DNA from: Rhizoclosmatium globosum
Taxonomy: Eukaryota > Chytridiomycota > Chytridiomycetes > Chytridiales > Chytriomycetaceae
Assembly (NCBI GenBank): GCA_002104985.1
Contig: MCGO01000022.1
Location: 496,001 to 560,000, forward strand
Reading direction: 5' to 3'
DNA length: 64,000 nucleotides
Shown here piece after piece: positions 34,060-48,233 of the stretch (its first letter is position 1; each line of letters opens with the position of its first letter). The position numbers and the translations under genes are program-made. The notes beneath the pieces were generated by a model. That model was not told the origin of the DNA and did not search any database. It saw only the letters and a program-made list of their open reading frames with translations.

Positions 34060-35097
34060 TGTAACAAGTAAGGGTTGCTTCCCCTTTCCAGGTTTCAATC
34101 CTCGCTACTATCATACAACACTCGCTCATAGGTCTACGCTTACTTGCCAAAAAGCACGGTACGAATCAGTACCCTGGTCCCTCCTCCGTGGCTCCAATGA
34201 TTCCAGGTACTGTCTGAAAGACCCAAGGTCTTCGCTCGCTAAGACACTAATTCCAGGCTGAAGTAAATAAAGAACAATAAAAGAAATAATACATCGCTAC
34301 GCTCTACCACTCCCTTCTAATGTTCCAGTAGTCCGTTACCGTTACATCATCCACTTCGCTCATCCGCTTGTTACTCCCGAGGCAAGATCCGTTATCCCCG
34401 AGAGACCCGACTTCGCGAACATCCCTGAACGCCTCGGTGCGCCACTATAGCCCTTATGTCCATAGTGTGGAGTCTACGCTGATAGTTCCAGTCGCCGCTG
34501 GCTTTCCACCGCTTCCTCTGTGCAACAGATCCATGGGTCAGCGTTCAAGCCTACAACCCATGGCAAGGCACGTGCTCCGTGGCCGGAGGAACCTGGGGTG
34601 CTCCACACACGCTAGCCCCAGCCCCCGCCATGCACACGTACCCCACACATCCAGCCTACTCGTTCAGTCCAGAGGTAGCCCACTCCTCTCTTCGATTCGT
34701 CCCCTGCTACCTCCTTTGGTTTGCTAACCTGTAGTTCGCTAATCCGGCATCGGACTCCCTAACTCGGCCTTTCCCTTCGGTCGAGGTGACTTGTGTCTCG
34801 CTGATCCAGAGTACTCGCTCCGGCGCGTCTACCGTGAAACCGGCCTATGGTGGCGTCTCCCTAAGAGCGGCCACGCCCGTCTGTTACACGTCGACGCCGT
34901 CGCTCGCTCGAGGTCCGTCTCGCTCTGGGCGACCTTGATCGACTCGCTCGCCTTTCAATTCGCAACAACTTTTTATTCCAATAATAGACACCGTTCTAAT
35001 CTTAAATCCCCAAACTAAAATTCCAAAAATATATAAAGAAAACGTGTCAAGTCCAAGTCCGAACCAAACCCCAGAACGTGCGCCTGCACACGTTACA
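34060..35097 (-). repeat. 3' LTR of the gypsy element
   Basis: Direct copy of 47197-48233 with a few substitutions (for example at about 34111 and 34127). Ends are TG...CA. The host base just outside is in the first intron of the truncated stomatin gene. Confidence 0.9.
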
Positions 35098-35101
35098 GTA
35101 G

Positions 35102-35111
35102 CCTCTTTTTT
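35102..35111 (-). other. Polypurine tract of the gypsy element
   Basis: AAAAAAGAGG on the minus strand, four nucleotides before the 3' LTR. This is the expected place and composition for the plus-strand primer of an LTR element. Confidence 0.65.
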
Positions 35112-35244
35112 AACTATGTATCCGCCCCTTGGATACACAACTGGTTCCAACTTTTCCTGACTTCTTGAACTGGGTATAAAAACTCCACCTTGAAGAAAAC
35201 TATCTAGCCCAAAAGTCACAACTTCCTATTCTCAATCAAAAACC

Positions 35245-38139
35245 TCATTCCTCCTCTTGTGTTTGTTCACCTCCTAACCTACTACTTCTCCGAGGCCTTT
35301 GATTCTGACCTCCCCCTTGTCCTTCCACTTGTTTCCGCCTTTTCTCTGTTCTCTTAAGCTCTGCTGCAGCTTTAGTTATATAAGTGCCAACAGTCACAGG
35401 TCCCAACAGAAACTCATCGTCAGGTACAATGTCTCTGGGTAAGTCATCCACTCCTTTATACCGATCATCAATCCATTTCCGATAAACCGTGTAAGCCCTA
35501 CTTTTGATCTGTTTCTGGTATCCCCAGAAAATCTTTAATGTTTCCTCCGGTAGTGTCTCGTCGGTATGCATTTGTAATTCTCTTACACCTTTCAACTTTA
35601 CCACATAAAAGAATCCTGTTCCTTCTCGTCCCACATGAGTAATGGCCAAAATTTTATGTAAAGGATCTGTGTCCTCGGTATGGTCATACTCTTCCATCTT
35701 TCTTCTCAAAGAAGGGTGAGTCGCAAACAATGGTTCGTGAGAGTACAAAGGCCTCCTCGTTAGGATACGCCCTTGTTTCTTCCACGCAGCTATTTCAGCT
35801 TTTAACTCCTCTTCCTTTGACACTTGTCGCACTGCTCTTTCAGCTGACTCTATTGGTCTCCTATGAACATAGGGTCTTAACCTACTCACATGTGCTTCAC
35901 GTTGAACTACTTCTCCCCCCGGAAAAGTTTCCACCACTCTAAATAAAGTTCCTGAATCACCTTTAGACTGATCCATGATTCTTACAGGTCCAACCCATCT
36001 AAAGATAAATTTCTTTGGAGCTTTCAATCTCTGCATCTCACTTTCTAGTGGTACTGCTAACCAAGCTCTGTCGCCGATCTCAAAGGTATGAGGTGCGCGG
36101 TCGTTTTCCAACGATTTTTCCCTAAGGGCCTCTTTTGCCTTGGCCACCTTTTCTTTTATAACGCTCTGAGCTGCGTGAAGTCCTTTAAGGATGTACTTCA
36201 TAAACAATTTACGCCGCTCATCATCCTTGAGTTTCCTAGTATCGACTACGGGTCGATCAACTGCCTCCTCTAGCTCAACTTCCTCGTCAGCTTCTTCATC
36301 GACAAAAACTTCAAAGATATTCCCTCGGCTCTCTTCGAATACAAAGGTCTCGGTCGACTTTACTCCCACTGAGTATTCTGGTGGGTTAATTATCCAGAAT
36401 TTTCCTGCTTTGTCCCAAAGCGGTTCAGCACCAAATAAATGTAAATCTCTCCTTCGAGGGTCGACAAGACTAACGGTTTTGTCTAAGTATTCCTCTTTCT
36501 CGTACGAACGATAAGTGCACTTCACGACTCCGACACCTTGTTCGCGTCCTAAGGTTACAACCGGTCTGCCATCGTTATACTCAAGATCTTCGGGCGAAGG
36601 TCCAATCTCCAAACTATTCGTTCGGCTATACACGGCCACAAGTCGAGAAACAGGTACCTTACCCATTCTTTCGTCAAAACCGTTCTCCTTCCCCGGGCTC
36701 AAACAATATACCGCGTCCCGTAGGTCAGCTCTCGATCCATCTCTCAAATAAATACAATTTGGGAAAGGACTAACTTTCGACTTCATTTTAGGATCGTACA
36801 CTAAACACAACACATCCAAGTCGTGTCTTTCGAGGATGTCTCTTAGCATCATCCACAAAGGTTGATCGTCTTTGGTGTATCCGTACAAGTGTTTGCAACA
36901 CTTATCTTTAAACTGCTCAACACTAACAAACTGGGCAACAGAAATCCTAGGAAGCCCTTCCCGTTTCCTATTGCTTTCCGCGTTTCCCTCGATATGTATG
37001 TTTGTTTCGGCTTCAATCCTTTCAACAGCCGCAGCTTCTTCTTCGTAAACCGCGTCATCAGGATTAACGTCCCTGGGACTAATTCCAACGAACATATCCG
37101 TAGGTAGTCTCGCGTCTCTACCATGCCATGCAAAGTAGGGTGTCTCGTTAGTGGTTCCGTGTGGGTGCGTTCTATACGCAAACATTACAAAAGGGAGTAT
37201 CTCTTCCCAATCGTTAAACTTAAATTTATCAATATACGCTCTTATCTCCTGTGATAGAGTTTTGATCATCCTTTCGGCAGGTCCATTTGCTCTCGGCCAA
37301 TAAGGCGCGGTAAAAGTCTTTTCGAATCCCAACCATCGGCTCAGTTGATGCACCAATGTACTATCAAGTGGCGGTCCTCCATCAGTGTGTAAGAAGACAG
37401 GTATTCCGTACCTACAGAATATCCGAGTCACTAATGCTTTACAAACAGTTTCCCCCGTCAAGTCAGGAATAGGGATGGCTTCAGCCCACTTCGTAAAGCT
37501 ATCTACCCACACCATTATATAACGGTTTCCATTAGGGTTCTCTTTTCCCGTATCCATAAAATCTAGGAACGTTCGCTCCATTGCAAACTCTCCCAAAGGT
37601 ATTGGATGTAAGTAACCAGTTTTCGTATGAAAGTCCTTAGATTTATTACAGGTTTCACACGATTCCACGTGGTTCCTCAGATCTTTAACAATATCTGGCC
37701 ACCAGAATCTATCCAACAACACGGGTAACACCTTCGCATGGCCGAAATGCCCTGCGTAGATATCGTCGTGGTGCCTCTCAAGAATTGTTCTCTTCAAAGA
37801 GTCAGGTACGCATAAAGCTATTCTTCCTGATGCCCTCCTAACCACATTTGTGTTCAAGTCCGAAACAAAGAACAGTAAGCCATTCAAGTCCAAAACCATT
37901 CGCTTTGATCTTGTAGCCATAGTTTCGGCATCCAAGTCTTCGGGTATTTCGAACTTCTCTTTGAAGCGAATAATGGGTCCTAAATAAGGATCCTCCAACT
38001 GCTTTTCACGCCACGTTTTCAAGGATTCTCCTTGAGTGAAGGACATAACTCCTAAATTAATCTCCAATTCTTCCTCACAGAGTTTTATTGATCCATCGCA
38101 AATGTTGAGAAGTCCGACGTTGCCTTTCCATTCAGCCAC
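35245..38139 (-). CDS. Gypsy integrase with C-terminal extension and large insertion
   Basis: About 964 codons in one frame; the N-terminal end joins the upstream polyprotein by a frameshift. Zinc-binding HHCC: ERHHDDIYAGHFGH and CETC (residues about 123-164). Catalytic DD35E: D193 (FLDFMD), D253 (HTDGG), E289 (GPAER), with exactly 35 residues between the last two. Core motif WVDSFTKWAEAIP is typical. After the core (YFAWHGRDARLPTDMF) comes an unfamiliar stretch of about 265 residues (375-640). The normal post-core helix (KEKVAKAKEALREKS) and GDRAWLAVP GPF-like region then resume. The tail has a chromodomain-like patch (LHKILAITHVGREGTGFFYVVKLKG) and a basic C-terminus. Confidence 0.88.
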   Translation of the reverse strand: MAEWKGNVGLLNICDGSIKLCEEELEINLGVMSFTQGESLKTWREKQLEDPYLGPIIRFKEKFEIPEDLDAETMATRSKRMVLDLNGLLFFVSDLNTNVVRRASGRIALCVPDSLKRTILERHHDDIYAGHFGHAKVLPVLLDRFWWPDIVKDLRNHVESCETCNKSKDFHTKTGYLHPIPLGEFAMERTFLDFMDTGKENPNGNRYIMVWVDSFTKWAEAIPIPDLTGETVCKALVTRIFCRYGIPVFLHTDGGPPLDSTLVHQLSRWLGFEKTFTAPYWPRANGPAERMIKTLSQEIRAYIDKFKFNDWEEILPFVMFAYRTHPHGTTNETPYFAWHGRDARLPTDMFVGISPRDVNPDDAVYEEEAAAVERIEAETNIHIEGNAESNRKREGLPRISVAQFVSVEQFKDKCCKHLYGYTKDDQPLWMMLRDILERHDLDVLCLVYDPKMKSKVSPFPNCIYLRDGSRADLRDAVYCLSPGKENGFDERMGKVPVSRLVAVYSRTNSLEIGPSPEDLEYNDGRPVVTLGREQGVGVVKCTYRSYEKEEYLDKTVSLVDPRRRDLHLFGAEPLWDKAGKFWIINPPEYSVGVKSTETFVFEESRGNIFEVFVDEEADEEVELEEAVDRPVVDTRKLKDDERRKLFMKYILKGLHAAQSVIKEKVAKAKEALREKSLENDRAPHTFEIGDRAWLAVPLESEMQRLKAPKKFIFRWVGPVRIMDQSKGDSGTLFRVVETFPGGEVVQREAHVSRLRPYVHRRPIESAERAVRQVSKEEELKAEIAAWKKQGRILTRRPLYSHEPLFATHPSLRRKMEEYDHTEDTDPLHKILAITHVGREGTGFFYVVKLKGVRELQMHTDETLPEETLKIFWGYQKQIKSRAYTVYRKWIDDRYKGVDDLPRDIVPDDEFLLGPVTVGTYITKAAAELKRTEKRRKQVEGQGGGQNQRPRRSSRLGGEQTQEEE

Positions 38140-38199
38140 TCTGTGGTGTCTACTAACATTTCTTCTCCTATTTTAGGGAATCCCTTCAAACTCGTGTGT

Positions 38200-39300
38200 A
38201 ATTCGACTCTCAGTGGTCACTCCCACTCATGTCTGCATCGATTCGAACGTCGAATCCCTCCTCTTCGATTCGCTTATCTATTAACACATGGTCGATTCTC
38301 CAAAATGGATATTCCGTCTTATTCTTAGCCTTCAACAGCCAAGTCGCTCCCAAGTCATCAGGATGTTTCACTCGAAAACCATCATGATAGTTCTCAGTCA
38401 TTTTCTTGAACCATTCCTGTTCTTCCTTACTAATAGTTGAGGGGAATCGGTTCACCAATTTGTCTTCTGATACTATCGGCGAAACATCATTCATTGTCGG
38501 CGCAATATTCATGTCTCCCAACAAGATTACAAGGTGATCTTCTCTCAGGTTGTCACAGTGTGTCTTGAGGTCGTCTAAAAACTTCAATTTATACTCTGGC
38601 GCTCTGAGTGTCTCATTCCACTCGGACATAAGTATTTACTATTGCTATATCTCCAAGGATCAGGGTTAACACTCGTCCTTTATCTCCATCGTAGACAAGT
38701 GTCTCTCCGCCCTTAGATATCTCCATTCCTTCGATGGTCTTGGCTTCTACTTTTCCGTAGATTCCTTCCTCCATAAGATTGCGACTCCTGCATATCCTGT
38801 TTCTGAGTCATTCAACGAACATTCCAGTTCGGGAGCTCTTTAAAGCAGCGAATAACTTCTTACTTTTATTATTCGTACCCATTCGTGTTTCCTGTAGACA
38901 AACGATACTACATCTCTGTGAATCAAGAAATGTTCGACTCTTTCTGTCAAAGGTAAGAGTTTAAGGTCGTGTTCTTCGTCGTATTTCTTCAATAAACTCC
39001 GCAATCCGTTAATATTCCATGTTGAAACGTTTATACTCTTCGAGATTGGCATTGTCTCAGGTTTCTGTCTCGGTACTTTCTGCACGTCTCTCAAGTTTTT
39101 CAGGCGCTTATCTGTTTTAGACTTATTCATAAGTCTCGTTCCTAAGTCGGTCATAAGATCGTTCGTGCTCTCAGGTTCAGCTGCTTCTGCAACCTGATTC
39201 GAAGTATATGTTTCCAAGAACAATCTACGGTGTTCGCTCTTTGCAACTCTCTCTGTTTGTCAGTCGTAGCATATTTATTATACATGTATGTTTGGTACAA
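38200..39300 (-). CDS. EEP (AP endonuclease/ExoIII-like) domain within pol
   Basis: Reading minus, the motifs of the endonuclease/exonuclease/phosphatase family appear in the right order and spacing: STWNINGLRS (Asn site, about 39022-38993), VCLQETRMG (catalytic Glu, about 38904-38878, in the next frame), KGRVLTLILGDIAIVNTYV (Tyr site, about 38690-38630), LLGDMNIAP (Asp-Asn site, about 38521-38495), PFWRIDHVLID (about 38313-38281), MSGSDH (terminal Asp-His, about 38227-38210). At least two single-base shifts separate the pieces. Upstream, a charged linker connects to the end of RNase H (DTLSRVDF type); downstream, the sequence runs on into integrase. The likely activity is AP-site or target DNA nicking, inferred from motifs. 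Confidence 0.85.
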
Positions 39301-40087
39301 AGTTTTTAAAGGGGTATTCTCGTTCTCCCTTCCAGAATCCCCGGTCTCTTGACCATCAGCCTCTTTTTTAATCGCGTGCTTCACTCCTGTGAAGTCAACT
39401 CTTGATAGTGTATCGGTACAACCTGGTTTTTTCCTGGTACGTGAATGATTGACAAATCATAATCTGAAAGGGCGTAAGCCCATCTCGCGAATCTTCCTGT
39501 CAAAGCACCGCTTTTCACCAATTGTACAAGAGCTGAATGATCAGTTTCGATAGTAACTGGTCGATCGAAGATATACTTATCGAAGCAGCCACAAGCCCAT
39601 ACTACCGCAAGACCTTCTCGGTCTGTGTTCGAGTACTTCTGTTCCACTTCGTTCAGCGTTCTCGAAATGAATGCAACAGGTTTTCTATCTGCTCGAGTTC
39701 CTTTCGGTCCTTTTGCGTAGAGTGCACCGCCTAAAGCCGTGCCAGAAGCATCACATTCGATGATATATTCTTCGTTATCTCCCGGTAAGTATAATATTTT
39801 ATCGTCACACAAAGCTGCTATTAATTTTTAAACGCTGCTTCGCATGCTTCTGTCCAAACCCACGATTTATCTCCTTTCAAGAGCGAGTACAACGGCGCTG
39901 CAATAGACGCGAAATCTTTAATGAATCTTCGGAAGTAGTTTCCAAAACCTAAGAAAGACTGCAATTGTCTAATTCCCGTTGGTACAGGCCAGTTTCTCAA
40001 TTTAGAAATCTTATCTGGATCTCTCCTAAACCGTCCTTCGAAATAACATGTCCCAAAAATGGTAACTCTTGGTGGAAGAGTGCACAT
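39301..40087 (-). CDS. RT thumb/connection and RNase H of the gypsy element
   Basis: First piece (to about 39821): RRDPDKISKLRNWPVP and LQSFLGFGNYFRRFI, the usual segment after the RT core. Second piece: RNase H with IIECDASGTALGGAL (catalytic Asp), NTDREGLAVVWA (Glu), FDRPVTIETDHSALV (Asp) and YDLSIIHVPGKNQV. In a shifted frame it ends DTLSRVDF, the gypsy RNase H/pol boundary motif. Breaks between frames are near 40040, 39815 and 39440. Confidence 0.88.
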
Positions 40088-43000
40088 TTCGACGGTTTTA
40101 TTTTCAAATTATACAAGTACATTCGCTCCAGAACCTTCTCAAGGTGTTCAAAGTGTTCTTCCTCTGTCTTCGAATAGATTATAATATCATCCACGTATAC
40201 CAACGCGAAAACAAATTTATACCCAGCTAACACTGCGTCCATCATTCGTTGGAATGTTGGTGGTGAGTTTGTAAGCCCGAACGGAAGAACCTTAAAATGG
40301 TAAAGTCCTTGTGACGAGATAAAGGCAGTCTTCTCTTTACTCTCTTCGTCCATAGGAATCTGCCAGAATCCACTCATCAAATCCACTGATGAGAAATAAT
40401 GTTTTCCCGAAACCATGTCAAAGGTCTCGTCTATTCTTGGTAGAGGGTATCTGTCAGGTATCGTTATCTGATTTAGTTTCCGAAAATCAGCACAGAATCT
40501 CCAATTACCATCGGCTTTCTTCGCCAAAACCACTGGAGCGGCATATTGAGACGTTGACGGTTCAATTACCTCATCTTTCAACATTTTCTCAATATGTTCT
40601 CGCAATATCTGAGTTCGACCCGCCCCTTCCGGGTATGGGTGTGAATGAGGTATGCGAGCTCCTGGTTTCAACTCAATTTTATGTGCAGGGACTCTTTTCG
40701 TTCCTGTCACTACATCACTTTTAAAGACATCAATATATTTTCCAATTAAGTCCAGAAGCCTCCTTTTTGTGTCTGGGCCATAAAAGTCGGAGTCCATATG
40801 ACTCAAGTCAATCTTATTAAAGATTTCTTCGTTCGACTTATACTCTTCAGGCATGTAATCTCTTTTATCCTCTTTTGTGATATCATGTCCTGGTGTTGAA
40901 TTCATGATTGGGTCAGGATCCAATTCCGATTCTACTATCTTCGTGTAGGTATAAGGGTCAAGCGTCTTTAAATCTTTAATAAATCTCGGATCGCGAATAG
41001 AATCTATCCATTCAGCGCGTCTTTCACGTATTCTTCGCTTCCGACGCGAAGTTTCATCTTCTAATTCATATTTCTTGTCAATCTTCTTTGACAATTCATC
41101 GACGATGTCCTCTATATGCAACATCACCGCTCTGAACTCTTTATGAGTACGGGGTTTCTTCCTTCCTACTGATTGTAAGATCGGGTCGAGGAAGTCCTTT
41201 TCTTTAAACAGTTTGTTCACTGAGGTAGGTTTCTGTTCAAGCACAGACTCGAAGAAATCCTCATCTAATGAAACGTAAAGTTCTATCCGTCCTTCCGTTT
41301 CGTAGTCGGCCTCGTCTGACTCCTTCTCTGAGTCTTCGTCGGAATCCTCTTTATTCGGTGGGTCGACAAAGTCGAGTTCGTCAACCAGTATAGGTTGGAC
41401 CCTAACCTCTTCTTCTAAAGGCGTTTCGGGTGGTTTGTCCTCCATTAAACAGCTAAGAAACGCGATGTTATTCCCTGGATTATGCATTTTCGCCTGTAAC
41501 GCCATTTCGATCATCATTGATTGATCGTTCACGTCTATACTTTTAGGTACATCTAATACAGGTACGTCCCCACATTGGACGGTTGCTAAGCATATTCCTT
41601 CATCTAATTTTAATTCCTCCGATCCCACATAAGTCAGTTGCATTTTAACTGCTTTCGAGTTGACATCTTCAACCCGATATATCGTATTTGCTACAAGAAT
41701 TCCTCTGCTAGCCATATCAGGGAAACCTTGAAGTAAGCAATTTTCTTGGTTGTTGGGTAGCTTTCTATCCAACTCTACTAAAACTATTCTTCCTTCCATT
41801 GGTTTCAGGAGTATATTTTCTTTAAGAACCATCGTCGGTTTCTCTTCTGGAACATACTCTTCATAATATTTTAATGGTACACTCAATCGTTCTTTATTGT
41901 GTACTAGTTCACCATTTTTCGTGTAGAACGAACGTGCTTTCATTCTGGGACCATAGAATAGCCTATCGATTGAAAAGCACAAGTCCATTTCAAATAGTTT
42001 AATGGCTGGTGTTCCCAGTATTATTGGTCTTGGCAATCCTGGAACCAGCGAAAACTTCACTTGTCTTTTGTATCCGTTTCTTTCACCAATGCAAACGTCG
42101 GCGTAAAAATAACCTATCATGGTCATTGATCCCGCTATCCCCTTCGTTGTTCTCAACGAATCATACTTGAATAGTCGAGGCCGTACACGAAATGACTTGT
42201 AAAATTCCAAAGAAGCCGAATTATGGTTCGCTCCGGTATCTACAAGTGCATCTGAAAAGTGAATCATCTCCACGAACAGACTTATAGTCGTGATTCGAAA
42301 AACTCCATCCAACATGGAATAGGTCGCAAGTTCCACGTTTATATCTTTGTAATTGGTTCCTGGGACATCGGATACTCTCGCCGTAGCTATTGATCCATCT
42401 TCAAAGACAGCGGTGAGTTTTTCTTCGAACTCAACGTTCTTTCGAGTTTTACAGAACGTTTTTACCTTAGGTGCAAGTTCATTCTTCTTCTCACGTCCTT
42501 TCTTATTCAGAAAGATGGGGTTTTTAAGGATATTCCTTGAGGGTATAACCTCTCGGTGATTTGTACCAACTTTGGATTCTAACTCACTTATAGGTACAGC
42601 ATTCCATTCGTACCTATGAATCGGCGAAATCTGGGCGTCGAATGCTTTTGAAAGAGGGTCAATCGACTCCTTCGACGGTATTTCCAATTCCATTCTTTCT
42701 TCATTCGACTCCGTTCCTTCTTGAGTCGATTTTCCAGTATGCATTCTCACATCACTACTAATTAAGATTTTATTTTCAAAAGCTAACTCTCCATTATTAG
42801 AGGTTTCAACAGTAAGTTCAGAATCATTATTACACGTAAATTCAATAGGCACTTCGAATTGAGAAACATTATTAATTAAGTTTAAAGGTTTGTCGTTGTT
42901 GTTTGTTGTTTCTGTCAAAATGTTAATTTCATTCACAGTCTCCTCCTGTTCTGACTCACATCTGTCGCCGGCTCGTTCAGCTTTCACCGCACGGATAGCT

Positions 43001-45531
43001 TTCTCTACTACGTCAGCATACGGACAGTCAGCGGCTCGATGGCCTTCCTCCTTACAAGTGAAACACTTCTGTGGCATAGGGCGATTCGAGACTCTCCAAT
43101 TCTGACGTTGATCCGTACTCATATTGAAGGTGTTTGCAATCAATTCGAACTTCTCGTCCCAGTTTTGAGGGTTCGTTTCCTGGTTCACCTGCATCAAAGC
43201 CGTGTGTAAAACCTTTTCCATGTTCGTATTAGGTCCGATTCCTTGACCATAGCGGCGTCCTTCCGACGGCGCACGGTCACGATCTCTTTCACGATCATTC
43301 CGGTGACGACTCTGTTCTCGTTTACGCTCTTCCAGGAGCACCTGAGTCAACTTTCCAATATCAGCTGATGTCTGCGCTTGTTGAAGTGCCACGTGTTGTA
43401 CTGCGGTTTCCAAAGACGAAAGTCTGCTATCTTCGCGACTAGACTTCTTGTTACGTATTTCACCGTTAAAACCTTTCTTGTACAAGAATTGAGCAACCAT
43501 GTCCATAGTTACACGTGAATCAGTGTACTTGACTTTCGAACCAGCCACTACAAAGTCGTGGTCATGTAGACGTTGAATTATACCGTCTTGCGTCGATTCT
43601 GGAATTTTAGCAATGAATGTATCCTTCAACGTTTGTGCGCTAACTGCTTTGTCACCCAACAGATGATTCGCATTCTTACGCATTTCGCTTTCCTTCAGCG
43701 CATTGTTCGAACTCCATTCCCCATTAATCAAGGCTTGAGCTGCTTTAAATTGGACAATCGACGAGGTAACCAAAGTCTCCCATGCCCAATTAAAGTTATT
43801 AAACGTAGGGTCTCGACGCAAAGATGCCTTGAACGTCATGATATCGCTATCAGTAGAGTCCATGGGCAACGTTTGAACAAAGTTCTTGATGAACTCATCA
43901 TCGGTCTTGTACCTCTTGTCTTGACCCACATAATCAGCTTTCAAGGCGTCGACGGCTCTCTTCCATGTTTCACGAGTATCCTTGTTCAAAGGTTCATTAT
44001 GGAAGGACCTGACTCTTGTATCGAAGTTATTGTTTCCATACAATACACCCGTCAGTTTATCGGCAAAATCAGTGAAACCTGTCATGGTATTCGAACCAAT
44101 GTCAGAAACAGCATTATTGAGGCTCTTAACTTGTAAGCCAATTCCGGAAACTTCTTGGTTTACTGACTCCGTCGCTGTAGCTAGACGTTCACTGTGTCTT
44201 GCAATCAAGTTTGCATGACCCTCAGCTTTTCTGTTCGAATGAACCAACTCATCCAACATAGTTCTCGGACCTTCTTGTTCTGGTTCCTCTTCCTGGTCTT
44301 GAGGTTCATCCGGGATAATTTCTACCGGCGTCAATGCATTATTGGGATATGTTTTTCCCAACTCATTCATCAGTTTGCGATAGTTATCATGGCTGTACGC
44401 TCTAACTCGAGTACCAGTCCTTGCTTCAAGGTGTTCTTTAACTTCCTTGAAGATTTGGCGAAGGGTTACGTCACTGGTAACCTCAATGTTATCTGGGATC
44501 CGGAGGGTACCCGAAGTCTCAGTCCAAGAGTAAGATACTCCGTTAATACTGAATTGAATCATGATTCTAGGTGTTGTATTGTTAAACCAAATCCATAAGA
44601 CACCAACGATCAAGGGTGTCCATAACAGGGACATCATAACACTCACGGGAACAAGATAGGTTGAGGACCAGCCATCAATACTCGAAATACCGGTCGTCGG
44701 TTTAATTATAGAAGCAACTATCAAGTTGAAGAGGAGCCGATTCTTGGATCTTTTTGAAATACAACCTCTCCTCCCACCGCTTCTTAAAACTTCATCTCGG
44801 GTCATTTTCAAGCAATTATTATTCAAATAAACTCGATTAAACTCATTAAATGATGTAGATTCAACAACACACTTCAAAGAATAAAGGATTACTTCAGAAA
44901 TAATGAAAGTAACAAATTCAGTTACGCTTGTAGGATCAGCTTCGCTAGTTCCTTTCGCGAGAATATCTTCCTCCAGAGGATGAGTAATTTGGACGTCCGC
45001 GGTTTGAGGGACGTGGATCCCATTCACCTGTTCGAGAATGAATCCTTGATCACCTCTTCCTTCAACCTCACCTCTGTGGTCGTCATATTCGCGCTGTCCA
45101 TAGCGATTACCTCTCATACGGTTATTACGGTTATTTTTCTTTTGAGCTCGATTGGCTTTTCCGAAATCCTTTTGCTGGGCCAGATAACCTCCGATCTGCG
45201 CTCCAGTCAATGCCGCAATTCCGATATTGTCTTTCGTAAGTGGCGTAGATGCGGTAATCCCCGATTGGAGATTAATTCCGGCCACAACTTTCTGAAGGTT
45301 CGAGAGCTCTTCTTCTCTCGCCTTTTTCAAGAAGAACGTCTTTCCTACAGGAAAGAAGGACTTAGAATAATCATATAGTCCCCTCCAAGTCGAAACTTGG
45401 GTACGCAGATATAAAAATCTGGAAATTCCTACAACAACGCTCCACAACTCAACCCAAAATAAAGTCAACTTACTTTCATCCCTATCCGTGGTGGTGTTCC
45501 CGATTGGTCCTTTCCTTGGGCACGGATCCAA
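39997..45531 (-). CDS. Gag-protease-reverse transcriptase polyprotein of the gypsy element
   Basis: One uninterrupted frame of 1,844 codons. The likely Gag start is the ATG at 44562 (MIQFSINGVSYSW); the frame continues upstream to 45531 and includes a hydrophobic segment near the start codon (SVMMSLLWTPLIVGVLWIW). Gag has a long helical capsid-like part and a CCHC knuckle (CFTCKEEGHRAADC, about 43060). Protease: ALVDTGANHNS (about 42240). RT: IEPSTSQYAAPVVLAKK, GNWRFCADFRKLNQIT, FKVLPFGLTNSPPTFQRMM, and catalytic LVYVDDIIIYS (about 40185). It is not separated by a Gag stop, so Gag and Pol appear fused. Confidence 0.92.
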   Translation of the reverse strand: MDPCPRKGPIGNTTTDRDESKLTLFWVELWSVVVGISRFLYLRTQVSTWRGLYDYSKSFFPVGKTFFLKKAREEELSNLQKVVAGINLQSGITASTPLTKDNIGIAALTGAQIGGYLAQQKDFGKANRAQKKNNRNNRMRGNRYGQREYDDHRGEVEGRGDQGFILEQVNGIHVPQTADVQITHPLEEDILAKGTSEADPTSVTEFVTFIISEVILYSLKCVVESTSFNEFNRVYLNNNCLKMTRDEVLRSGGRRGCISKRSKNRLLFNLIVASIIKPTTGISSIDGWSSTYLVPVSVMMSLLWTPLIVGVLWIWFNNTTPRIMIQFSINGVSYSWTETSGTLRIPDNIEVTSDVTLRQIFKEVKEHLEARTGTRVRAYSHDNYRKLMNELGKTYPNNALTPVEIIPDEPQDQEEEPEQEGPRTMLDELVHSNRKAEGHANLIARHSERLATATESVNQEVSGIGLQVKSLNNAVSDIGSNTMTGFTDFADKLTGVLYGNNNFDTRVRSFHNEPLNKDTRETWKRAVDALKADYVGQDKRYKTDDEFIKNFVQTLPMDSTDSDIMTFKASLRRDPTFNNFNWAWETLVTSSIVQFKAAQALINGEWSSNNALKESEMRKNANHLLGDKAVSAQTLKDTFIAKIPESTQDGIIQRLHDHDFVVAGSKVKYTDSRVTMDMVAQFLYKKGFNGEIRNKKSSREDSRLSSLETAVQHVALQQAQTSADIGKLTQVLLEERKREQSRHRNDRERDRDRAPSEGRRYGQGIGPNTNMEKVLHTALMQVNQETNPQNWDEKFELIANTFNMSTDQRQNWRVSNRPMPQKCFTCKEEGHRAADCPYADVVEKAIRAVKAERAGDRCESEQEETVNEINILTETTNNNDKPLNLINNVSQFEVPIEFTCNNDSELTVETSNNGELAFENKILISSDVRMHTGKSTQEGTESNEERMELEIPSKESIDPLSKAFDAQISPIHRYEWNAVPISELESKVGTNHREVIPSRNILKNPIFLNKKGREKKNELAPKVKTFCKTRKNVEFEEKLTAVFEDGSIATARVSDVPGTNYKDINVELATYSMLDGVFRITTISLFVEMIHFSDALVDTGANHNSASLEFYKSFRVRPRLFKYDSLRTTKGIAGSMTMIGYFYADVCIGERNGYKRQVKFSLVPGLPRPIILGTPAIKLFEMDLCFSIDRLFYGPRMKARSFYTKNGELVHNKERLSVPLKYYEEYVPEEKPTMVLKENILLKPMEGRIVLVELDRKLPNNQENCLLQGFPDMASRGILVANTIYRVEDVNSKAVKMQLTYVGSEELKLDEGICLATVQCGDVPVLDVPKSIDVNDQSMMIEMALQAKMHNPGNNIAFLSCLMEDKPPETPLEEEVRVQPILVDELDFVDPPNKEDSDEDSEKESDEADYETEGRIELYVSLDEDFFESVLEQKPTSVNKLFKEKDFLDPILQSVGRKKPRTHKEFRAVMLHIEDIVDELSKKIDKKYELEDETSRRKRRIRERRAEWIDSIRDPRFIKDLKTLDPYTYTKIVESELDPDPIMNSTPGHDITKEDKRDYMPEEYKSNEEIFNKIDLSHMDSDFYGPDTKRRLLDLIGKYIDVFKSDVVTGTKRVPAHKIELKPGARIPHSHPYPEGAGRTQILREHIEKMLKDEVIEPSTSQYAAPVVLAKKADGNWRFCADFRKLNQITIPDRYPLPRIDETFDMVSGKHYFSSVDLMSGFWQIPMDEESKEKTAFISSQGLYHFKVLPFGLTNSPPTFQRMMDAVLAGYKFVFALVYVDDIIIYSKTEEEHFEHLEKVLERMYLYNLKIKPSKCALFHQELPFLGHVISKDGLGEIQIRFLN

Positions 45532-45651
45532 CTGGCTTGGTTCGCATAATCCAATTCTCTTGAAGAGTATTGACGTTACGCCACGCGTTAGTCAGCTGTT
45601 CATTGAGAGAATCGATTCGTTCTTTAAGTCTGAAAACTTGTTCCTCGTTGT

Positions 45652-46116
45652 TTACCATAGCTCGGCTCCTTCGGGAGGAGTCGACCCTGTAGTCACGGTT
45701 AGTTTGGCCTCGGCTTCTTTCAAGCGCGACTGAAAAGTATCACATTGCTTTTTGTGATGGTCGCGACGACCAGTCAAATGCTTGCAACGGTGTTCCAATT
45801 CAACAACCTTATTCTTGGCGGCTGTGTACTTGGTAACCGTCTTATCAAGTTGCTCCATAATCAAATCGCGATCTTTCTTGACAGTTTCAAGCTCAGTCGC
45901 AGTCTCAATCGCTTGGTCTTGAACCGCAATCAAATTGTTTTGGACAGCGGTAAGCTTGGCACGCAAGTAGGTTTCAGAGTCGTTGCCAACGGTTCTCCCA
46001 GTGAAGTTTCTTGACAGCCGTTTCCAAAGAGTTTCTTGGTCAACGTCAATTACCATGGTCGCACTTGGCAAGGGAGAGAGTTCATCCACAATCTCGTCCT
46101 CGGCCGTAGATGCCAA
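45652..46116 (-). CDS. Element-borne small coiled-coil ORF
   Basis: 154-codon frame between the 5' LTR and gag, same strand as the element. Acidic start (MASTAEDEIVDELSPLP), then a predicted coiled coil (KLTAVQNNLIAVQDQAIE, ATELETVKKDRDLIMEQLDK, NKVVELEHRCKHL). No family recognised. It may be an accessory protein or an N-terminal part of Gag separated by a frameshift. Confidence 0.5.
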   Translation of the reverse strand: MASTAEDEIVDELSPLPSATMVIDVDQETLWKRLSRNFTGRTVGNDSETYLRAKLTAVQNNLIAVQDQAIETATELETVKKDRDLIMEQLDKTVTKYTAAKNKVVELEHRCKHLTGRRDHHKKQCDTFQSRLKEAEAKLTVTTGSTPPEGAELW

Positions 46117-46474
46117 AGTGGACGCGCTTCCTTGAGTTTCAACAAGTTCTAATCACAGTTATTCAGCGTGTACCTTCGCAACAGTATACAAACTATTGGT
46201 CTTGAGATCACAACTGTCCTCAATGTCGTCAAAGTCGTAATCAATAAGCTCTTCTTCCGTTTGGCTCATGTTTTTAGGGTGTTTTTTGTTTTGCACTGAA
46301 CAAAAAGAAAGAAAGTCTTTTAAAGTTTCTAAATCAGGAACGTGATTCTGAGAACGTGCCCTTTAGGTTGATTGTGATTGGTTGGTTTGCAAAAAACATG
46401 TCAGTGTTCTTTTATTAGCTTCACATCTCACGTCAAACAACACGTGTATACTCGTCATTACGGTTCTGGACTTC

Positions 46475-46906
46475 TTAATCGTCCTCATTATCCGAAACTA
46501 GGTCTGGCATTGATGTATCATCAGAGATGTCAACAAGTTCTGGTAAATCGTCCAACGTTGCCAAATCTGGTGTTGATAGTTCACAGTACAATGCTAAAGC
46601 ATTCTGTAGAAACTCGCTTGGCGAAGTAGGAAATCCATATCTTGTACTCTGTACTTGATACAGGATCAAATCGTCTTGAATCCGAGTTCCACGAAAGTAT
46701 TGTAGTGTTCCCAACAGCTCCTGTTGTTCCGGTGTGAGGGACTCATCGACGACTCCGGTTTGTTTGTCACAATCCCTCGGACAAGCTACTGCTTTCTCGG
46801 CCTCTGTCAAGGATGACAAGGTCAACGTCTTCGTCATTCGCTGAGTTTCCAGAATGTATCCGCGAATCCAAATTCGGAAATCGATTTTCACATCACTTAT
46901 GGCCAC
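46475..46906 (-). CDS. Element-borne small acidic ORF
   Basis: 143-codon frame just inside the 5' LTR leader, sense with the element. The N-terminus is MAISDVKIDFRIWIRGYILE, the middle contains TLTPEQQELLGTLQYFRG-like helical sequence, and the C-terminus is very acidic (DDTSMPDLVSDNEDD). No recognised domain. Position suggests an extra 5' gene or an N-terminal Gag piece. Confidence 0.45.
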   Translation of the reverse strand: MAISDVKIDFRIWIRGYILETQRMTKTLTLSSLTEAEKAVACPRDCDKQTGVVDESLTPEQQELLGTLQYFRGTRIQDDLILYQVQSTRYGFPTSPSEFLQNALALYCELSTPDLATLDDLPELVDISDDTSMPDLVSDNEDD

Positions 46907-47196
46907 GCAGTCATCTAAGTGATATCATGTTTTGTTATTTGTTCATGCCGTTGAACCCAAAAATCCATTCCAACTAAATAAGTCCAACTTTAAACAAAGT
47001 ACATCCTTTTACTTCGATTTTAAATTGTTTATTTATACATAGCTTCTCCAATAAACTAGTTCAGCTCTCACTAAGAGAGGCCTCATGTTTTAAACTACAT
47101 GGAGTCTCATGTCTAATACATGGTACTACACACATTCCCGTGTGGTCAATCTCACTCACAACTCTAGGTTGTCGCTTTTACGTTGGGCCCCCATTC
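46907..47196 (-). other. 5' leader and putative primer-binding site of the gypsy element
   Basis: Three nucleotides inside the 5' LTR, the minus strand reads TGGGGGCCCAACGTAAAA (47193-47176). A PBS starting TGG, complementary to a tRNA 3' CCA end, is expected exactly there. I cannot name the tRNA from memory with certainty. The rest of the leader shows nothing further. Confidence 0.5.
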
Positions 47197-48233
47197 TGTA
47201 ACAAGTAAGGGTTGCTTCCCCTTTCCAGGTTTCAATCCTCGCTACCATCCTACAACACTCGCTCCTAGGTCTACGCTTACTTGCCAAAAAGCACGGTACG
47301 AATCAGTACCCTGGTCCCTCCTCCGTGGCTCCAATGATTCCAGGTACTGTCTGAAAGACCCAAGGTCTTCGCTCGCTAAGACACTAATCCCAGGCTGACG
47401 TAAATAAAGAACAATAAAAGAAATAACACATCGCTACGCTCTACCACTCCCTCCTAATGTTCCAGTAGTCCGTTACCGTTACATCATCCACTCCGCTCAT
47501 CCGCTTGTTACTCCCGAGGCAAGATCCGTTACCCCCGAGAGACCCGACTTCGCTAACATTCCTGAACGCCTCGGTGCGCCACCATAGCCCTTATGTCCAT
47601 AGTGTGGAGTCTACGCTGATAGTTCCAGTCGCCGCTGGCTTTCCACCGCTTCCTCTGTGCAACAGATCCATGGGTCAGCGTTCAAGCCTACAACCCATGG
47701 CAAGGCACGTGCTCCGTGGCCGGAGGAACCTGGGGTGCTCCACACACGCTAGCCCCAGCCCCCGCCATGCACACGTACCCCACACATCCAGCCTACTCGT
47801 TCAGTCCAGAGGTAGCCCACTCCTCTCTTCGATTCGTCCCCTGCTACCTCCTTTGGTTCGCTAACCTGTAGTTCGCTAATCCGGCATCGGACTCCCTAAC
47901 TCGGCCTTTCCCTTCGGTCGAGGTGACTTGTGTCTCGCTGATCCAGAGTACTCGCTCCGGCGCGTCTACCGTGAAACCGGCCTATGGTGGCGTCTCCCTA
48001 AGAGCGGCCACGCCCGTCTGTTACACGTCGACGCCGTCGCTCGCTCGAGGTCCGTCTCGCTCTGGGCGACCTTGATCGACTCGCTCGCCTTTCAATTCGC
48101 AACAACTTTTTATTCCAATAATAGACACTGTTCTAATCTAAAGTCCCCAACTAAAATTCCAAAAATAGATAAAGAAAACGTGTCGAGTCCAAGTCCGAAC
48201 CAAACCCCAGAACGTGCGCCTGCACACGTTACA
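47197..48233 (-). repeat. 5' LTR of the gypsy element
   Basis: Direct copy of 34060-35097. The right end (GTTACA) abuts the Gln-rich N-terminal coding sequence of the casein kinase gene, so the LTR now forms the upstream region of that gene. Confidence 0.9.

Follow-up and report, generated by a model that had tools for sequence, protein, structure and literature searches.

The window, by which we mean the whole 64,000-nucleotide stretch analysed here (positions 496001-560000 of contig C135, in a 56.9-Mb genome assembled into 420 contigs), carries a Ty3/gypsy-type LTR retrotransposon at 34060-48233 on the minus strand. Its LTRs are about 1.04 kb each and end in TGTAAC...GTTACA, and between its RNase H and its integrase lies a domain of the EEP nuclease superfamily (Table 1). 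Pfam matches within the open reading frames of the window place the zinc knuckle and reverse transcriptase (RT) in 40000-45591, RNase H in 39384-39827, and the integrase zinc finger (H2C2) and core (rve) in 35248-38172, while the DTGA motif is presumably that of the aspartic protease. No match to a chromodomain, the mark of chromoviruses, was obtained in the window ORF or in L009, an intact copy on contig C43.

Table 1. Parts of the retrotransposon, in element orientation (window coordinates)
Feature	Position	Strand	Basis
5' LTR	47197..48233	-	LTR-to-LTR comparison, ends read
Gag CCHC zinc knuckle	43021..43071	-	PF00098, 25.1 bits
Putative aspartic protease motif DTGA	42220..42252	-	Read by eye; no Pfam family match
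Reverse transcriptase	40042..40521	-	PF00078, 127.9 bits
RNase H	39459..39776	-	PF17917, 99 bits
Poorly conserved linker, RNase H to EEP	39023..39458	-	Amino-acid identity across family pairs
EEP, exonuclease III/APE1-family, frame-broken in this copy	38213..39022	-	PF03372, 40.4 bits; TIGR00633, 66.8 bits (below cut-off)
Integrase HHCC zinc-binding domain (Integrase_H2C2)	37636..37809	-	PF17921, 66.3 bits
Integrase DDE core (rve)	37297..37566	-	PF00665, 38.3 bits
Stretch without assigned kind, integrase core to C-terminal RWVGPVRI stretch	35998..36948	-	Comparison of clade A loci
3' LTR	34060..35097	-	1020/1039 identical to 5' LTR; TGTAAC...GTTACA ends

An earlier note on this DNA had placed an EEP domain between RNase H and integrase on the same strand, and both the arrangement and the coordinates it gave proved right. 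In a six-frame search the PF03372 match spans profile positions 2-225 and reads through 7 in-frame stops; taken by itself, the second half (38213-38635) reaches 31.6 bits, the cut-off being 24.5, and the first piece (38843-39259) by itself gave no match. The domain is thus present as claimed, but in this copy it is broken by frame changes, since alignment with the C43 copy reveals 10 one-base gaps in 1,470 columns. Ten of the 15 gaps that separate the two copies over 9.9 kb are concentrated in the 1.46 kb of 38000-39460, a cluster that reflects either local decay or local sequencing error.

In the four family pairs where it was measured, the linker is 25-69% identical in amino acids, against 48-82% for the EEP domain of these pairs. 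Counterparts of the stretch at 35998-36948 occur in five loci of the group that we call clade A below (L009, L014, L015, L026 and L029, those of L015 and L029 being partial); that of L009 has no Pfam match, and no solved relative was found for this type of stretch under an E-value of 0.5.

Recurrence of the arrangement in the genome

Genome-wide lists of matches, which are lower bounds for repeats, were compared for PF03372 (83 matches), PF17921 (60) and PF17917 (65, of which 60 were used after five split fragments were dropped). Thirty-nine of the 83 EEP matches lie at most 1.5 kb after an RNase H and at most 1.5 kb before an integrase zinc finger, and these represent 37 elements, two of which contribute two matches apiece. 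Two further EEPs stand just before an integrase with no RNase H found, seven are found upstream of the zinc finger at a distance of 2.0-3.4 kb, and the remaining 35 fall elsewhere. Seen from the integrase, an EEP lies immediately upstream at 39 of the 60 zinc-finger sites and a PF03372 match is nearby at 46; of the 14 sites with none nearby, two (on C55 and C189) show a weak TIGR00633 match in the interval that separates RNase H from integrase. As rough random placement predicts about 0.07 EEP-integrase pairs, the association is not due to chance. Some contigs are likely to be haplotypes of one another, as is suggested by an endonuclease IV match common to C109 and C372, so that element counts do not equal counts of independent insertions.

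The domain occupies the same place in several divergent families, a recurrence that the earlier note had proposed to look for. Element L009 encodes in a single frame of 2,867 residues the zinc knuckle, RT, RNase H, EEP, H2C2 and rve domains, and L026 (C401) is organized alike, with no zinc-knuckle match in the part covered. Two further families, L006 and L007, follow the order of L009 by Pfam, and in another, L029, the order RT-RNase H-EEP-integrase was read by eye. In clade A, RT, RNase H and integrase stand in gypsy order on one strand, and the copies scanned score 93-100 bits with the RNase H model PF17917. A second group, clade B, comprises L020 and L024, which have a divergent RT and carry RT, RNase H, EEP and H2C2 in one frame, together with L018, L034 and L035, in which the EEP comes first and is followed in the same frame by RT, RNase H and H2C2. 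The rve match is absent or under the cut-off in these five (the L034 and L035 sequences scanned stop near the integrase), and in L018 RVT_1 is under the cut-off as well. Judged by domain matches, then, the EEP is found between RNase H and integrase in most families and ahead of RT in some. The Ty3/gypsy assignment rests on Pfam models and domain order, the RT tree being built from elements of this genome alone; clade B is called gypsy because of its RNase H, H2C2, domain order and the LTRs of the C347 element, a relative of L018. A partial EEP resembling that of L034 (L045, C368:91900-93300) lies on the opposite strand about 4 kb from the L034 element.

Identity of the domain

The earlier note had regarded APE-type EEP domains as belonging either to LINE-type elements or to cellular repair; for the domain found here, profile scores favour the cellular exonuclease III/APE1 alternative. 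The curated cut-off of NCBIfam model TIGR00633 (exonuclease III/APE1) is 99.05 bits; 34 sites exceed it on their own and a 35th does so together with its neighbours, and all 35 are integrase-associated. Outside the integrase-associated set no EEP site of this genome reaches the cut-off, and the EEPs of L023, L042 and L043, called LINE-like by eye, fall below it. A search with a single sequence retrieved exonuclease III (5cfe) at 3.4e-22. With a profile of ten families, exonuclease III was matched at 2e-49, APEX1 at about 5e-39 and the LINE-1 endonuclease at 4.5e-15, so the fold named in the earlier note was recovered, the EEP family being found at around 1e-49. By these profile scores the domain is better assigned to the exonuclease III/APE1 family than to the LINE type.

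Active-site residues were scored in 28 EEP rows of the genome, five of them partial (L017, L031, L033, L044 and L045). The catalytic N, E, Y, D, N, D, D and H are kept in all 23 full-length rows. All full-length clade A rows have the tryptophan of the WRID motif, whereas clade B has F, A or M at this position; in APE1 this tryptophan lines the AP-site pocket, and the predicted nuclease of clade B may therefore not favour abasic sites. The host genome encodes endonuclease IV, and L046, read by eye, is probably an APE2; a stand-alone APE1 was not evident in it, although intron-split genes could escape such a search. The chitin synthases and 16 dynein heavy chain matches observed in the same genome suggest that the host is a flagellated fungus, which makes the chytrid origin presumed in the earlier note plausible.

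Phylogeny of the EEP and RT-RNase H regions

The EEP tree of 41 rows combined 11 EEP elements of the genome, 24 of 80 bacterial loci, three LINE-like sequences and three others. It recovered clade A (6 rows, support 98/99) and clade B (5 rows, 96/90), and the three LINE rows were weakly placed on long branches. In the unrooted RT-RNase H tree of 14 rows the same clades were supported at 97/99 and 100/100, respectively, and three EEP-less gypsy elements that had been included fell with A, across the branch from B. Inside clade B the two trees differ: the two rows with the EEP between RNase H and integrase are nested among the EEP-before-RT rows in the EEP tree, whereas the RT-RNase H tree unites the three EEP-before-RT rows with 99/97 support. 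From this discordance it is likely that the EEP changed its position within Pol in clade B. Several tree rows are long branches, and neither a single EEP clade (p-AU 0.435, EEP tree) nor a single clade of EEP-bearing elements (p-AU 0.459, RT tree) was rejected, so that one capture followed by losses and two separate captures both stand.

Selection on the EEP domain

Between families, synonymous sites are mostly saturated, with EEP amino-acid identities of 48-82%, and dN/dS was for this reason estimated from within-family pairs. The full-length pairs with at least ten changes gave dN/dS values of 0.016 (L013-L014; 15 synonymous and 1 nonsynonymous changes), 0.041 (L029-L032; 23 and 4), 0.054 (L026-L027; 9 and 2) and 0 (L027-L028; 10 and 0). 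One-sided binomial tests on these four pairs, two of which share L027 and are not independent, yielded p values from 2e-5 to 1e-12. L026-L028 (3 synonymous, 2 nonsynonymous) gave 0.166, and the other full-length within-family pairs are identical or differ by at most three changes (dN/dS 0 to 0.30). Overall, estimates from pairs with few changes were either 0 or 0.14-0.30. Among fragment pairs, those with L017 and L044 gave 0.76-0.77 and L032-L044 gave 0.10; pairs involving these two rows were set aside because the row ends run out of frame. The codon comparisons point to strong purifying selection on the EEP, in keeping with the view in the earlier note that the preserved motifs reflect selection.

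LTRs and mode of insertion

A search with the LTR of the window family returned 19 matches, of which four are unpaired and three cover only 95 bp, at 77% identity, in related elements. Six LTR pairs were delimited (on C135, C43, C324, C372, C184 and C416), and each encloses an EEP between RNase H and integrase; copies of this family lacking the domain, which would have told against the earlier note, were thus not encountered among the six LTR-bracketed copies. LTRs ending in TG...CA are found in the window family, including C416, and in the clade B element on C347. The C416 LTRs are identical over 1037/1037 positions and are flanked by the 4-bp duplication CGCT, and the C347 element, of the EEP-before-RT type, has LTRs that are 98% alike, all differences being gaps, and the duplication CATG. 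Exact 4-bp target duplications also flank the copies on C324 and C184, so that three of the six window-family pairs (C416, C324 and C184) have one; none was found at the LTR-pair flanks of the window copy, C43 and C372. The 4-bp duplications and TG/CA ends indicate insertion as by integrase, for which the additional nuclease need not cut the target.

The window copy itself looks composite. Its 5' flank is common to C324 and C43, and its 5' LTR shows no difference from the 3' LTR of C43 or, over 930 bases, from that of C324; its 3' LTR is identical to the C372 5' LTR, and the 5' flank of C372 ends in GTTG, the start of the window's 3' flank. LTRs and flanks therefore match two different insertions, through recombination or misassembly, and C372 looks composite as well. 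It follows that LTR divergence does not date the window copy.

Relatives outside the genome and in the literature

A profile of the RNase H-EEP-integrase region gave 67 matches among the best 7,990 candidates scored, and a single other EEP-bearing gypsy-type protein, P0002, was found among these best candidates. It is encoded on an ENA contig of 11.8 kb and comprises RT, RNase H and EEP in 1,052 residues, and it stops where the integrase zinc finger begins, so that its order is seen up to that point. Its EEP scores 110 bits with TIGR00633, and where long alignments exist the protein shares 44-48% identity with the clade A frames, which places it outside the clade A families compared. Searches with EEP proteins returned no match among 768 candidates for the C43 element and one, P0001, among 2,272 candidates for L020; a scan of virus contigs detected no relative. 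P0001 is a protein in which exonuclease III is fused to a group II intron-like RT (RVT_N, RVT_1, GIIM), and P0060, P0064 and P0066 each combine exonuclease III with DNA polymerase I domains, the EEP being N-terminal in P0060. Judging from these fusions, the joining of exonuclease III to polymerases recurs.

A gypsy element with an EEP domain was not found described in open-access text, and within that literature the earlier note's remark that it knew of no such gypsy lineage holds. PMC3248453 mentions complex transposons that carry extra domains and attributes them to several insertions into a single locus; figure S1 of that paper is a possible earlier sighting. In the accessible portions of two other papers, Exo_endo_phos is assigned to LINEs (PMC10799480) and APE domains are confined to non-LTR elements (PMC5911963).

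Discussion

We regard it as about 95% probable, from domain matches and gene order, that these elements have a Ty3/gypsy-type Pol that includes an exonuclease III/APE1-family nuclease. They share with Ty3/gypsy elements (Metaviridae) the TG/CA LTR ends, the CCHC Gag, the RT-RNase H-integrase order, the HHCC and DDE integrase domains and, in some copies, the 4-bp duplications, and differ from them in the added domain, in the lack of a chromodomain match and, in clade A, in some 300 residues without assigned kind after the integrase core. The EEP resembles exonuclease III and APE1 in its score above the cut-off, its catalytic residues and its best solved relatives (exonuclease III and AP endonucleases), but it is embedded in a retrotransposon polyprotein and, in clade B, is without the WRID tryptophan. 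The APE-type endonucleases of LINE (non-LTR) elements belong to the same superfamily but match the profile far more weakly, and LINEs differ in element order and mode of insertion. Two gypsy precedents come nearest. In KnitGypsy-Dnmt3 of K. nitens (PMC5890265) the Pol frame includes a captured enzyme under purifying selection, a methyltransferase rather than a nuclease; in Archon and Chronos, which have dual RNase H (PMC5348765), the extra nuclease captured beside the gypsy RNase H is of the RNase H family rather than an EEP. That the EEP is peculiar to one copy, as an isolated insertion, a chimera or a piece of a LINE, which the broken EEP frame and composite LTRs of the window copy might suggest, is refuted by the recurrence of the domain at the same place in divergent families, the intact frames, the selection and the presence of P0002 in another source, and retains practically no probability.

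As to function, we favour a role in cleaning the element's own cDNA. The EEP would be made with Pol and enter the particle, where it would cut the cDNA at abasic sites and remove blocked or extra 3' nucleotides; RT could then extend, and integrase join, the cleaned ends, with RNase H and integrase keeping their usual roles. Taken jointly with the architecture, this mechanism has in our estimate somewhat less than an even chance of being correct, and the location of the EEP beside the integrase zinc finger would be equally compatible with a part in integration. Slightly less probable again is a fuller account, in which an LTR retrotransposon lineage with two catalytic DNA nucleases captured its exonuclease III/APE1 domain from a cellular or bacterial source, came to require it for cDNA maturation or integration, and moved it to a second position in Pol.

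The earlier note had suggested that the domain could nick target DNA, and a dual-endonuclease element whose EEP helps or steers integration is the best surviving alternative, albeit an unlikely one. LINE elements nick their targets with a related fold, to which the EEP profile is indeed matched (LINE-1 endonuclease), and the EEP directly precedes the integrase zinc finger at 39 of 60 sites; yet the 4-bp duplications and TG/CA ends of the C416, C347, C324 and C184 copies are what integrase alone produces, and some clade B families have the EEP ahead of RT. These insertion marks and the position of the clade B EEP away from integrase are our reasons for preferring cDNA cleaning over target cutting.

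Two other roles appear more improbable still, and to a similar degree. The EEP might act on RNA or RNA-DNA hybrids, as a second RNase H-like activity or in primer removal: bacterial exonuclease III has RNase H activity, but the elements' own RNase H, to judge from its PF17917 scores in the clade A copies scanned, needs no replacement. Some precedent for this role is that gypsy elements are known to have captured a second RNase H (PMC5348765). Alternatively, the EEP could counter a defence by which the host leaves cDNA with uracil or abasic sites, which would call for the same enzymology as cDNA cleaning and would agree with the strong retention of the domain.

The general view is that RNase H and integrase are the only nucleases that LTR retrotransposons require. 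The gypsy LTR families seen here have a selected nuclease of DNA-repair type predicted in their polyprotein, and we found no such family described in open-access text. A selected AP-endonuclease-type domain in several families would imply either that damaged or blocked cDNA ends limit the replication of these elements, or that a helper nuclease can be used in their integration.
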